Under the pieces are notes generated by a model, which saw only the letters and a list, made by a program, of their open reading frames with translations, searched no databases and was not told the origin of the DNA. The position numbers were made by a program, and so were the translations under genes. A stretch of DNA of 64,000 bases from Rhizobium ruizarguesonis (GTDB lineage: Bacteria; Pseudomonadota; Alphaproteobacteria; Rhizobiales; Rhizobiaceae): assembly GCF_012349115.1 (NCBI RefSeq), contig NZ_PQIG01000057.1:62001-126000 (forward strand), read 5' to 3'. Each line of letters begins with the position of its first letter. The stretch's first letter is position 1. Shown here piece after piece: positions 41,596 through 51,736 of the stretch.

Positions 41596-41988
41596 TCAGA
41601 CGGCAAGCGCGGTGGCGCAGGCTTGAACACTTCGGCTGTCGGGTGAGGTTTGCCCAGGCATGGTCGCCCAGCCGCCGGCCTCGACAAACTGACGCTGCTT
41701 GTAGCCTTCGGTAATCGCCTTGAACTCGATCAGTTTAGCGCTTGCATCCGGCGCCGCATTGAACCGCTCGACGCAAATGGCGGACGCCAGCTCTCCGCGT
41801 GCGATGTCGCCGGCGGCGGCTGCCGCTTTGCTTGATGTGCCGCCTGTTACCCAACCTCCCCAGCTGAATCCGATGATCATCGTGGCGATCGCCGTGACGA
41901 CGCAGGCCCAGGCGAGAAGCGTCTTGGATGGCTGATAACTTTCGAAACGCTGGGTAATCGATGTCTTGCTGCTGCTCTGCACGGACAT
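41596..41988 (-). CDS. Hypothetical single-pass membrane protein
   Basis: 130 residues. One membrane helix near residues 23-46 (LLAWACVVTAIATMIIGFSW) divides a short basic N-terminus from an extracytoplasmic part of about 85 residues containing two Cys (SAICVERF, VQACATAL) and an Ala-rich stretch. ATG 41988 has GGAGA six bases upstream; the frame extends to 42024 without support. Lies 67 bases downstream of groEL on the same strand, so it may be transcribed with it. Family not recognised. Confidence 0.7.
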   Translation of the reverse strand: MSVQSSSKTSITQRFESYQPSKTLLAWACVVTAIATMIIGFSWGGWVTGGTSSKAAAAAGDIARGELASAICVERFNAAPDASAKLIEFKAITEGYKQRQFVEAGGWATMPGQTSPDSRSVQACATALAV

Positions 41989-42054
41989 TGGAATTCTCCT
42001 TGTCTGTTGTTCGGATTGTGCCATCCGGCGACGCCGGAACGGTTCAGGCTGGCC

Positions 42055-44056
<2,002 letters not shown>

Positions 44057-44110: not shown

Positions 44111-44137
44111 GTGGCACTCGATTGATAGGAGTGCTAA
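44111..44137 (-). promoter_or_regulatory. CIRCE-like HrcA operator upstream of groES
   Basis: Left arm GTGGCACTC, nine-base spacer, right arm GAGTGCTAA. The CIRCE consensus is TTAGCACTC-N9-GAGTGCTAA; the right arm is perfect and the left has two mismatches. It lies 55 bases upstream of the groES start. It predicts repression by HrcA and heat induction. Confidence 0.85.
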
Positions 44138-44566
44138 TAAATATTGTTCACCAAGGGAATTTCTTGAAAAATTCAGGAAATCAATTTGAACGGATATTTT
44201 GTATTAATCCAGAAATGAAAAGAATTTTTTCGCCGTCGCGCTCAATTTTATTTAGCATATCGTGACCTTAATTTAGCGTTTTTTATAGATAAATCCGAAT
44301 TATCTTGATTTGGACTCAATCAAGGCGCAATGATAGGCCTCGTCGATTTGGCCGACTTGGCTTCGCGGTGTCAGAGACCTACGACCCGCCATCACCACTG
44401 AATTCTCGATAGCGAATGTATGACGTCGTTCCGGCGTTCATTTCGCCTGTTCCGATCCGGAATGAGCTTGGCGCTGACCGCGGATGTACCGGCAGCCTCG
44501 AGTTCGTCCGGCTCGGATCTCAACGATACAGGAACGCTTCAGTGTATTCCTGCGGAGGCCTCAGCC
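44138..44566. other. AT-rich region between groESL and a divergent small-gene cluster
   Basis: 429 bases, distinctly AT-rich from 44140 to 44330, where promoters for groES (minus) and the cluster (plus) should lie. The part from 44333 to about 44420 resembles 51283-51370 (shared ATTTGGCCGA, GCGGTG and CCCGCCAT). Frames open from 44416 and 44420 lack a ribosome-binding site at their first ATG; the supported start is GTG 44567. Confidence 0.45.
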
Positions 44567-44830
44567 GTGACAAGTCGCACCACAGAAACCGTCGTCCGTT
44601 TTTCATCTCCATTCCGCCTGCCCGGTTTCGACGGGGCGCAGCCAGCCGGAGAATACCGCGTCGATTATGACGAGGAATTGATCGATAGCGTTTCCAGGCT
44701 TGCCTGGCGACGGGTCGGCGCCTTCATCCACCTGCCGGCGATCGCCGCCCAGAGTTCGACGCAGCAGATGATGCCTGTCCACCTGTCAGATCTCGAAACC
44801 GCGCTCGAAAAGGACCACAAACTGTCATGA
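44567..44830 (+). CDS. Hypothetical protein, first gene of a five-gene overlapping cluster
   Basis: 87 residues from GTG 44567, chosen because a perfect GGAGG lies eight bases upstream; the longer frame from ATG 44420 has none. The protein is soluble, with FSSPFRLPGFDGAQPAGEYR, then YDEELIDSVSRLAWRR, and FIHLPAI near the end. It resembles a small conserved rhizobial/bradyrhizobial family of unknown function, by memory only. Its stop overlaps the next start by four bases. Confidence 0.7.
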   Translation: MTSRTTETVVRFSSPFRLPGFDGAQPAGEYRVDYDEELIDSVSRLAWRRVGAFIHLPAIAAQSSTQQMMPVHLSDLETALEKDHKLS

Positions 44831-45162
44831 CCGCTACGCGCATCCCGCAACGCAATGGACGCTCGATCCGACGCGAGGCAGCAACACATATCTTCAAGGT
44901 GGGGCAGACCGTCCGGGTGAAGGACGGGTTCCTGGTCGTTCCCTCCAAGCTCCCCGAGACATACCGCATTACCGCTACGCTGCCTCTGAGAGGAAATGTG
45001 CTGCAATACCGCATCCGCAGTGACGATGAACGTCATGAGCGGGTCGCGACGGAAGACAGCCTGGAACTGGTAAACCTATCGCCCGCCGGCAGCGGCGCAA
45101 CACTGATCGAGAGGACGTTTGGCCATGGCCACGGCCCGAATGACGAAAGGTTGACATCGTGA
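44827..45162 (+). CDS. Hypothetical protein with a KOW/SH3-like core, cluster gene 2
   Basis: 111 residues. The core FKVGQTVRVKDGFLVVPSKL then ETYRITATLPLRG and LQYRIRSDDERHERVATEDS suggests a small beta-barrel that reads like an SH3/KOW domain, possibly binding nucleic acid or protein. The N-terminus is basic. Start overlaps the previous stop (ATGA, 44827-44830) and its stop overlaps the next start (GTGA, 45159-45162). No function known. Confidence 0.7.
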   Translation: MTATRIPQRNGRSIRREAATHIFKVGQTVRVKDGFLVVPSKLPETYRITATLPLRGNVLQYRIRSDDERHERVATEDSLELVNLSPAGSGATLIERTFGHGHGPNDERLTS

Positions 45163-45488
45163 ACAGCCATGAAGACGAAGCCGAACGAAGACGGAATGCC
45201 TTTGCCGTCGGCACATGGGAAGACAAATGTGGCGCGTCCGGTCGCTACTCCATGGAGATCGAACACGACCGCCGGATCGAATCCGCCCGTTCGTCGACCG
45301 TCTATCGTGTCTCAGCAGGCGTTCCAGTGCTCGCCGACCATGCCATGACCGGCAAGAGCCGTTCGGAGGCCGGGAAAGAGATGATGTCCTTCAATCTTCT
45401 CAACATAGGATACCGGAAGGAATGGCTCAGGCTGTCGGACGCCGCTCGGAGTGCTCGTGAGACCCCGCCGGTTCAACCGTGGCGCTAG
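45159..45488 (+). CDS. Hypothetical protein, cluster gene 3
   Basis: 109 residues, soluble, charged N-terminus (MNSHEDEAERRRNAFAVGTW). No domain is recognised. Its GTG start overlaps the stop of gene 2 by four bases, and its end overlaps the DUF1488 gene by ten. Both overlaps support real translation. Confidence 0.6.
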   Translation: MNSHEDEAERRRNAFAVGTWEDKCGASGRYSMEIEHDRRIESARSSTVYRVSAGVPVLADHAMTGKSRSEAGKEMMSFNLLNIGYRKEWLRLSDAARSARETPPVQPWR

Positions 45489-45754
45489 CCTTCCTGAACC
45501 AAAGCCGTAGCTTCGATGCGGCGAGAAATGCTGTGCGCTTCGTCGGCCATGACGGCATGTTCCAGGTGTTGTTCTTCATCGAGGTTGGCGCTCTGGCGAA
45601 ATCCGACACCGCATTGCAAAGAACCGAGCCTTCGGAAACGAATTGGCTTTCGTTATTCGACGCCCTGCGCAACTCCATTCAGGACGTGGCACACAAAGCC
45701 TATTCCTACCGCCGCCGCGCCTTCTATACTCTAACTGCGGCGGACTTCCGCTAG
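45479..45754 (+). CDS. DUF1488 family protein, cluster gene 4
   Basis: 91 residues. Start MALAFLNQSRSFDAARNAVR then FVGHDG, and the ending YSYRRRAFYTLTAADFR, match the DUF1488 pattern (NPSRSYDxxRxxVxFxGxD ... YTLTxxDF). Members are small, common in proteobacteria and of unknown function. The GTG start at 45479 overlaps gene 3. Confidence 0.85.
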   Translation: MALAFLNQSRSFDAARNAVRFVGHDGMFQVLFFIEVGALAKSDTALQRTEPSETNWLSLFDALRNSIQDVAHKAYSYRRRAFYTLTAADFR

Positions 45755-45781
45755 GCGGATCCGGACGCGCGAGAACGCTCC

Positions 45782-46624
45782 ATGTTGATCCGTTACGGCT
45801 ATGAAATTACGCTGACCTGCCCGCAGCCGACCGCATTGGTATGCCTGTTGTCGGTTCATGATGATCGTGCGGCCGACATCAGAATTCCGGAAACGGTCTT
45901 CACCACGCCCGATGTTCCCACTTCGACTTATCGCGACCTCTTCGGCAACCGCTGTCTCCGGCTGATTGCCCCGGCGGGCGACCTGACCATATGGGGCGAT
46001 GCGACGATCGAAGACGACGGCAAACCGGACAGGTCGCTGCCAGGCGCCAGGGAACTCCCGGTTTCGGAATTGCCGGATGATTGCCTCGTCTACCTGATGG
46101 GCAGCCGCTATTGCGAGACGGATCGTCTCAGTCAAATTGCGTGGGATATGTTCGGCACCGTCTCACCTGGCTGGGGCCGCGTTCAGGCGATCTGCGACTT
46201 CGTTCACGGCCACATCCAATTCGACTACATGCAGGCGCGATCGACGCGGACAGCCTTCGAGGCGTTTCACGAACGTGTCGGCGTCTGTCGCGACTTTGCG
46301 CATCTCGCGGTGGCGTTGTGCCGTTGCCTCAACATTCCTGCCCGATATATCAATGGCCATCTCGGCGACATCGGTATTCCGGTCGTCGATCCGATGGACT
46401 TCAGCGCCTGGATCGAGGTCTTCCTGGACGGTGCATGGCATACATTCGATCCGCGCAACAATACGCCGCGGATTGGTCGTATCATCGTCGCACGCGGGCG
46501 CGACGCCGCCGACATACCGCTCATCAATTCCTTCGGTCCGCATGTGCTGAAGGCGTTTCGAGTCTGGACCTATGAGGTGACGAACCTGCAACAGATGCAA
46601 AGCGTCGCCGGGGGCGCTGTTTAG
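45782..46624 (+). CDS. Transglutaminase-like cysteine protease-fold protein, cluster gene 5
   Basis: 280 residues. The N-terminal beta domain (1-100) precedes the transglutaminase-like domain: nucleophile Cys169 in ERVGVCRDFAHLAVALC, and Asp223 in WHTFDPRNN. The position of the catalytic His, normally in HAW, is Ser208 (MDFSAWIEVFL). The rest of the motif is intact, so either His comes from elsewhere or the domain is not catalytic. No signal peptide. Ends with NLQQMQSVAGGAV. It lies 27 bases after DUF1488 and probably belongs to the same transcript. Confidence 0.85.
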   Translation: MLIRYGYEITLTCPQPTALVCLLSVHDDRAADIRIPETVFTTPDVPTSTYRDLFGNRCLRLIAPAGDLTIWGDATIEDDGKPDRSLPGARELPVSELPDDCLVYLMGSRYCETDRLSQIAWDMFGTVSPGWGRVQAICDFVHGHIQFDYMQARSTRTAFEAFHERVGVCRDFAHLAVALCRCLNIPARYINGHLGDIGIPVVDPMDFSAWIEVFLDGAWHTFDPRNNTPRIGRIIVARGRDAADIPLINSFGPHVLKAFRVWTYEVTNLQQMQSVAGGAV

Positions 46625-51209: not shown

Positions 51210-51592
51210 TGCGGATTGAACCCTGTGGAAATATGGCTTTCCTGCGGCGGCGGCCTTAATGGCGACTCAATTTTACGCTAAGAGGATGGCTCGCTGATTT
51301 GGCCGATGCGGCATTTGCGGTGACCGGAGTTCCGGCCCGCCATTTTCCCGATCGCGAAAGCATGGTGACGTCCCGTCTCAACGTCGGGTTTGGCTTTCGG
51401 TGACCTCTCCGGTCATCCGCCTCCAGACTGCGATGCGGTTTCAGCAGGCATCATTTTTATTCCATCCCTGCGGCCCGGTGTTGTCGGGTTGCCCCTCATG
51501 ACGATCCCGCGATCTCTGATCGCGACCGACAAGCGGGGCGAATACCACGCAGGCTGCGGCTTTCAATTTCGATCTAAAGGGAGATTTTATCG
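51210..51592. other. Intergenic region, no gene accepted
   Basis: 383 bases upstream of a very small gene. The segment 51283-51370 resembles 44333-44420 (ATTTGGCCGA, GCGGTG, CCCGCCAT shared in order). An open frame 51390-51611 is not supported. Holds the promoter of the 47-residue gene. Confidence 0.4.
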
Positions 51593-51736
51593 ATGGCAAA
51601 AGGACAAGTAAGAAGCAATCGCGAGGTCCGGAAGCCGAAGAAGGACAAGCAGGCAGCGAAGGTGGAAAGCACATTCGCCAATCAGATGAAGACGGCGACC
51701 AAAACCGCCCCGCAGGGCAGTGCTCCAAAGAAATAG
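51593..51736 (+). CDS. Very small basic protein, 47 residues
   Basis: ATG 51593 to TAG 51736; GGGAGA lies upstream at a longish distance. MAKGQVRSNREVRKPKKDKQ, then AAKVESTFANQMKTA and QGSAPKK at the end. Highly basic (many Lys and Arg), no hydrophobic segment, likely disordered or nucleic-acid associated. A conserved small type in rhizobia by memory. Too short for length-based gene finders. Confidence 0.65.
   Translation: MAKGQVRSNREVRKPKKDKQAAKVESTFANQMKTATKTAPQGSAPKK

Follow-up and report, generated by a model that had tools for sequence, protein, structure and literature searches.

How the several groESL copies of rhizobia and their relatives divide the work is in large part unsettled. 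In a stretch of 64,000 nucleotides from Rhizobium ruizarguesonis (contig NZ_PQIG01000057.1, positions 62,001 to 126,000; the window), one such copy with a CIRCE-type repeat (controlling inverted repeat of chaperone expression) lies divergent from a row of five closely spaced plus-strand open reading frames (ORFs). Do these ORFs form a unit, to what does it belong, and what has it to do with the chaperonin? Comparison with relatives points to the five ORFs being the remainder of a seven-gene operon common to many related soil bacteria. The host genome is 7.70 Mb in size, and its closest named relatives by orf1, the first ORF of the row, are strains of the Rhizobium leguminosarum complex.

Results

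The five ORFs of the window

The five ORFs had been described in a sequence-only reading, made from the letters of the window alone, as following each other with overlaps of 4, 4 and 10 bases and then a 27-base gap; they were found exactly so, and all are stop-terminated (Table 1). Ratios of non-synonymous to synonymous substitution (dN/dS), pooled over comparisons of the window genes with 12 relatives (for orf4, relative L051 gave no usable value), indicated purifying selection on all five, weakest on orf3 and strongest on the transglutaminase-like orf5 (TG); orf3 is the fastest evolving of the five. Because of these values, and because other genera have these short overlaps too, the ORFs are more than chance. 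Neither orf1 nor orf3 gave a Pfam match at E<=1, and an NCBIfam search of the window genes returned a single match, to TG, which was weak and far below threshold. A longer orf1 (in-frame start at 44420) was rejected: the upstream frame is broken or different in relatives, and the same stretch is also conserved as a non-coding element, including before other genes.

Table 1. Features of the locus in window coordinates. R1 and R2 are models of the promoter/leader element (sequence-only, 22 members, and wider, 24 members); aa, amino acids.
Feature	Position	Strand	Remarks
Promoter/leader element, copy 1	44302..44423	+	CTTGAT at 44304-44309, -10-like region, leader start; R1 E 1.3e-30 (copy built into model)
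Presumed transcribed leader of orf1	44330..44566	+	helix 2 at 44365-44368/44386-44389, helix 4 at 44473-44496; from conservation profile, consensus fold and pair counts
orf1	44567..44830	+	87 aa, GTG start; no Pfam family; dN/dS 0.27; confident model with beta-strands and C-terminal helix
orf2	44827..45162	+	111 aa, ATG start; predicted SH3-like barrel core, about residues 20-83; dN/dS 0.20
orf3	45159..45488	+	109 aa, GTG start; no Pfam family; dN/dS 0.48
orf4 (DUF1488)	45479..45754	+	91 aa, GTG start; PF07369 E 3.8e-16; dN/dS 0.28
orf5 (TG, transglutaminase-like)	45782..46624	+	280 aa, ATG start; PF01841 E 1.4e-19; dN/dS 0.09
Promoter/leader element, copy 2	51253..51365	+	R1 E 5.1e-13; R2 E 3.4e-16 (copy included in R2)
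MAKGQ gene	51593..51736	+	47 aa, basic small protein; in other genera an operon member between orf2 and X
CIRCE-type inverted repeat	44111..44137	-	upstream of groES; conserved in 28-locus alignment
groES of operon-linked pair	43739..44056	-	
groEL, operon-linked type	42055..43689	-	one of three groEL copies in the genome
Membrane-like protein	41596..42024	-	142 aa, behind groEL; no Pfam family

Operon organisation in relatives

Scanning with an alignment of orf1 turned up 145 relatives, the best 80 of which were used as named loci; all locus counts below are conditional on orf1 and on this selection. Downstream genes were counted within 2.6 kb on the same strand, and divergent groES within 1.2 kb. 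Behind orf1, orf2 was found at 77 of the 80 loci (directly after it in all 77), orf3 at 61, DUF1488 at 58, the small gene MAKGQ at 57 and TG at 38. Also conserved is another small gene, X (MK[IV]VIEFYRTR...), which was found at 47 of the 80, in many loci between MAKGQ and orf3. The commonest order, orf1-orf2-MAKGQ-X-orf3-DUF1488-TG, occurs at 25 of the 80 loci (19 with groES, six without it), and the order of the window, orf1-orf2-orf3-DUF1488-TG with groES, also at nine Rhizobium loci. The overlap of orf1 and orf2 is 4 bases in 63 of 72 measurable loci and 1 base in seven; that of orf3 and DUF1488 is 4 bases in 37 of 55 and 10 bases in nine. The same short overlaps are present in other genera.

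Membership of the cluster is modular. Twelve Rhizobium genomes (L042-L053) have all five genes in order and, on the opposite side, groES, groEL and the membrane-like gene; in L051 the DUF1488 match is shortened. Four further Rhizobium loci (L054-L057) carry the cluster without DUF1488 and TG, and TG is missing at L058, L062 and L067 and on the Mesorhizobium plasmids L040 and L041. At L063-L065 and L038 TG comes after orf1-orf2, in L063-L065 directly and without intact DUF1488.

MAKGQ has been displaced in the lineage of the window and lies 5 kb downstream of the cluster. The same arrangement, with MAKGQ about 6 kb downstream of orf1 and a second element copy before it, is found at eight loci (L169, L170, L172-L177). 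A search for X in the genome of the window gave no match at E<=0.001; this is a lone empty answer and weak evidence for absence.

Scattering of the five families in related genomes, named beforehand as the outcome that would speak against a common unit, is not what the 80 orf1 loci gave: the families keep their order. What held of the proposed single functional unit is its conserved, linked order with overlaps; its extent was drawn too narrowly, as MAKGQ and X commonly lie between orf2 and orf3.

A conserved promoter/leader element

In an alignment of 28 loci, the intergenic region consists of the CIRCE beside groES, a poorly conserved stretch, and then a conserved block that starts with CTTGAT. 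This block also stands before DUF1488 on pSymA of Sinorhizobium meliloti and S. medicae, and before orf2 in Ensifer canadensis. The element is about 125 bases long; the genome of the window holds only two strong copies, the next R2 match having E 0.04. R1 matched 40 of 150 relatives at E<=0.01; within the order, R2 had matches at E<=0.001 in 24 of 397 genomes. At E<=0.01 the element was found upstream of orf1 at 72 of the 80 loci. R1 also found it in 12 of 14 sources outside its build, including Xanthobacter, Prosthecomicrobium, Aureimonas, Shinella and S. meliloti, the build having included a close relative of the S. meliloti copies. R1 gave no element in Microvirga L082 or Azospirillum L083.

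The genes behind the element are largely of the same kind. In 17 of 23 stretches outside the main locus, an orf1 paralog, MAKGQ, or a cold-shock-domain (CSD) gene with an orf2 paralog follows it; these families were assigned by eye, one DUF1476-like and one CSD representative being confirmed by Pfam. The six stretches without these families all have weak scores (E 2e-4 or worse). The order-wide scan gave 28 loci: the element is followed by genes of the set at 23 of them, by groES only at one (L168), and by none of these at four. The element ties together the uncharacterised families orf1, orf2, MAKGQ, X, orf3 and DUF1488, and hints at where and when to assay them.

At five loci (L118, L120, L121, L123, L124), orf1 paralogs under the element are paired with a paralog of the F1-ATPase inhibitor zeta subunit (PF07345). 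At nine others (L068-L071, L132, L152, L156, L158, L160), the element stands before a CSD gene, often followed by orf2- or orf1-type genes.

Promoter type

CTTG is present in all 57 promoters that were read from the 72 loci with the element. The RpoH motif of R. etli is given as CTTGaa-N16-CgATaT in the available part of its description (PMC4167512); a loose RpoH-like -10 pattern was found in 28 of 52 distinct promoters, mostly outside R. leguminosarum.

Conservation and folding of the leader

For 18 loci at which groES is divergently placed, conservation was expressed, in bins of 25 bases, as the mean of pairwise identities. It was 0.81 at the CIRCE, 0.20-0.36 from the CIRCE region to the promoter (bins 101-225), 0.49-0.56 around the promoter, 0.67-0.81 in the leader (bins 276-500 of L169) and 0.71 where orf1 begins (its first full bins). 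The leader of about 240 bases is as conserved as the start of orf1.

For 33 leaders of operons that begin with orf1, RNAalifold gave 17 pairs in four helices, and 94.7% of the paired-position cells in the alignment do pair. Changes on both sides of a pair were counted in 27 cells, against 5.7 in shuffles (none of 500 reached 27) and 2-10 when the alignment was slid; structure and count come from one and the same alignment, which favours the structure. The window, leader included, gave no Rfam match at gathering threshold. ROSE or other thermometers, riboswitches and small RNAs were rejected as candidates, since at E<=5 only ar35 (18.2 bits, 45 needed) and, on the other strand, SAM-II (15.8 bits, 44 needed) appeared, both weak and unrelated.

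The divergent groESL

The inverted repeat of the divergent groESL, as given in the sequence-only reading, was confirmed in the sequence; against the CIRCE consensus, which we take to be TTAGCACTC, its left arm has two changes. The other two groEL copies of the genome are 74% identical to the operon-linked copy. Divergent groES was found at 43 of the 80 loci. In five genomes with the operon alongside, the linked GroEL is 87-94% identical to that of the window; other GroELs of the ten genomes searched reach 73-78%, or 44-45% for a third kind. One genome (G352) has a 91% GroEL copy beside groES and a weak element, with the operon genes not within reach. The groEL match at L045 is divided over different frames, and that at L052 covers residues 183-539 only; the operon genes there are open, and assembly error may be the cause. 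A GroEL type that travels with its own small-protein operon under a conserved leader would offer a testable reason for one of the groESL copies.

Transfer between families

Compared with the island of Shinella pollutisoli (L212), that of Devosia faecipullorum is 99.3% identical over 9.1 kb, that of Shinella daejeonensis 97.2% over 9.4 kb, and that of Nitratireductor indicus 98.9% over 6.1 kb. Such near-identity across families indicates recent horizontal transfer. By eye, the island common to Shinella, Devosia and Ochrobactrum also contains arsenic-resistance-like genes (L212, 1886-4616 and 12589-14994).

Predicted proteins

The orf1 model has a mean predicted local distance difference test (pLDDT) score of 86.7, with strands at 3-12, 28-40, 45-56 and 67-71 and a helix at 73-86. 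It gave no Foldseek match at E<=0.001 and a best VIA Z of 4.0, and no relative was drawn from it.

For orf2, previously labelled KOW/SH3-like, there was no Pfam KOW match at E<=1, but the model is consistent with an SH3-like barrel. Its pLDDT is about 79-87 in most bins of residues 21-80 (60 in 31-40), with a whole-protein mean of 66. The best Foldseek match had E 0.057 (none at <=0.001); the best VIA Z was 7.8 over 56 residues at 2.0 A, below the tool's own mark of 8, with R67 DHFR, KOW, chromo-barrel and PetP among the first rows. Pcc1 (PF09341) stayed below its cut-off (18.8 bits vs 20.9), and only OspA, at E about 1, was found among solved sequences at E<=5.

The assignments of orf4 to DUF1488 (PF07369, 59.3 bits vs a cut-off of 22) and of orf5 to the transglutaminase-like core (PF01841, 70.8 bits vs 23) were borne out. 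A search with orf4 returned no solved sequence at E<=5. TG keeps Cys169 and Asp223 and has Ser208 at the canonical (HAW-like) His position. Among 83 distinct relatives of at least 45% identity in which all three positions were aligned, Cys and Asp are kept in all 83, and the His position is Ser in 73, Ala in ten and His in none; a His from elsewhere in the chain is possible. Since the protein is strongly conserved, a binding role or an altered active site seems likelier than decay. The window TG and a 52% identical paralog (G000, contig C97, 31485-32288) fall into a broad subfamily with Ser or Ala at the place of the His. Anbu-type or ATP-grasp neighbours of this paralog were rejected, its neighbours on C97 being, by eye, another TG-like gene and trpD-like and peptidyl-prolyl-isomerase-like ORFs.

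Discussion

Proposed operon and its role

Conserved order, overlaps, the leader and joint transfer make it very likely that the genes form a functional unit. With moderate confidence, the five ORFs are taken as the form that an operon of the Hyphomicrobiales, conserved, modular and spread by horizontal transfer, has in Rhizobium; promoter, leader and stress module are pictured as follows. A single transcript of the seven-gene operon would start at a promoter some 240 bases before orf1 and run through the conserved leader RNA; often the operon would adjoin, in divergent orientation, a groESL with CIRCE whose GroEL is of one distinct type. In heat or other folding stress it would serve as an accessory module: the promoter, RpoH-like in many relatives, would switch it on, and its expression may be set a second time in the leader. 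As for the single proteins, SH3-like orf2 and basic MAKGQ (with a cold-shock-domain protein in some relatives) may act on RNA or ribosomes, and TG, lacking the canonical His, may bind a partner instead of crosslinking or cleaving; these molecular roles are put forward very tentatively.

A stress or protein-quality role had been called conceivable in the sequence-only reading. It has become plausible from the promoter type, the chaperonin neighbour and the cold-shock gene in relatives, all of which are context. Such a role is reasonable in view of the chaperonin partner, of the cold-shock gene that some relatives have, and of stress links published for DUF1488; in Burkholderia cenocepacia, according to the accessible part of the source, DUF1488 adjoins genes for Usp and for a heat shock protein, and all of them go up together (PMC6127331). 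A function of the unit in stress, probably that of protein folding or of temperature, is given even chances.

Several findings weigh against the operon as proposed. The element was undetected upstream of orf1 at eight of the 80 loci (L181, L182, L183, L185, L198, L205, L240, L243), and groES is not adjacent at 37 of the 80, contig ends cutting a few of these. In several lineages a frameshift, truncation or deletion has hit individual small genes, so the parts are not strictly interdependent. The common fold vanishes (0 pairs) when all element classes are aligned and shrinks to three pairs in a mainly groESL-linked set (A2), while the leader of the window alone folds only slightly better than shuffles (z -1.57; 16 of 200 as good). 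No expression data were found for any gene of the cluster. Finally, the promoter of the window itself has no RpoH-like -10 pattern; for this reason, and because the pattern occurs in 28 of the 52 promoters, RpoH control is put forward as a proposal; for the window, a promoter of sigma-70 type is just as possible.

A wider reading would make the leader a new cis-acting RNA family and a portable cassette, which puts a changing protein set (orf1, orf2, MAKGQ, X, orf3, DUF1488, CSD, F1-ATPase-zeta-like and His-less TG-like proteins) under one temperature- or stress-sensing control and, with its own GroEL type, forms a mobile proteostasis module of the Hyphomicrobiales. This is possible, if on the unlikely side.

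Alternative explanations

The missing groES at 37 of the 80 loci is what would be expected if the small genes were general stress-island genes (EcfG/RpoE2-type) that came to lie beside groESL by chance and travel together on a mobile plasmid island. Members of the orf1 or orf2 families do occur in other stress-island settings: in S. meliloti near DUF2934 and NhaA, and in Microvirga and Azospirillum near YsnF, DUF2382, PhnA-like or OsmC genes. The arsenic-resistance-like segment, too, shares the island. However, the EcfG-like motif GGAAC-N14-19-GTT was missing from all 13 upstream regions scanned, on which ground an EcfG/RpoE2 general stress promoter was rejected; a distinct conserved promoter/leader is present instead. 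One GroEL type, moreover, accompanies the operon in several genera, and overlaps and order are conserved. A chance neighbourhood is therefore considered unlikely.

The leader might also be conserved as DNA, its palindrome-like CTTGATT...CTCAATC spacer being the operator of a dedicated regulator. The spacer is conserved, with CAAT nearly invariant, at L067 it forms a perfect CCTTGATTGA-N3-TCAATCAAGG repeat, and across all element classes the sequence is conserved without a common structure. An operator is nevertheless improbable, as conservation spans about 240 bases, far past operator length, pairs covary in the orf1-first set, and the palindrome is degenerate outside L067. The palindrome CTTGATTGA-N3-TCAATCAAG was dropped as a regulon marker, the genome having one match with two mismatches (its own locus) and one with three.

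A toxin-antitoxin, phage-defence or other selfish module, suggested by small overlapping genes, mobility and plasmid location, is highly improbable given that none of the five proteins has a PADLOC match at E<=0.1, that the small genes number more than two and are lost piecemeal, one at a time, and that TG is under strong purifying selection.

Comparison with known systems

By profile, orf4 is a clear member of DUF1488 (PF07369; PDB 2gpi, Shew_3726), the fold of which is described as new, with a left-handed crossover, in the available part of PMC2954204. No description of DUF1488 in a chaperonin-linked operon was found in the literature, and the search found no paper on the operon or the element, most subscription papers being beyond its reach. 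The closest solved relative of TG in the transglutaminase-like superfamily is 3isr (E 2.8e-37), which shares the core domain and the Cys and Asp positions but has His where the window protein has Ser208.

The accessory groESL with CIRCE resembles the multiple CIRCE groESL operons of rhizobia (R. leguminosarum, S. meliloti, M. loti). The part of PMC3989490 that was accessible reports three groESL operons in R. leguminosarum, matching the three groEL copies of the window genome, and describes no downstream or divergent partner operon. In Agrobacterium, a long 5' leader before the cold-shock gene cspA has been proposed as a thermosensor (PMC3738593, in the part accessible). Some element copies likewise precede a CSD gene; the two are likened by arrangement, not by sequence. 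The transmissible locus of stress tolerance of Gammaproteobacteria is a mobile island with stress genes, defined by ClpG/ClpK and small heat shock genes; the present locus is like it in being a mobile island with putative stress genes.

Neighbouring genes

In L212, an HsdM-like gene follows the island segment. Behind groEL, the gene for the membrane-like protein is kept with the operon-linked groESL in many relatives.

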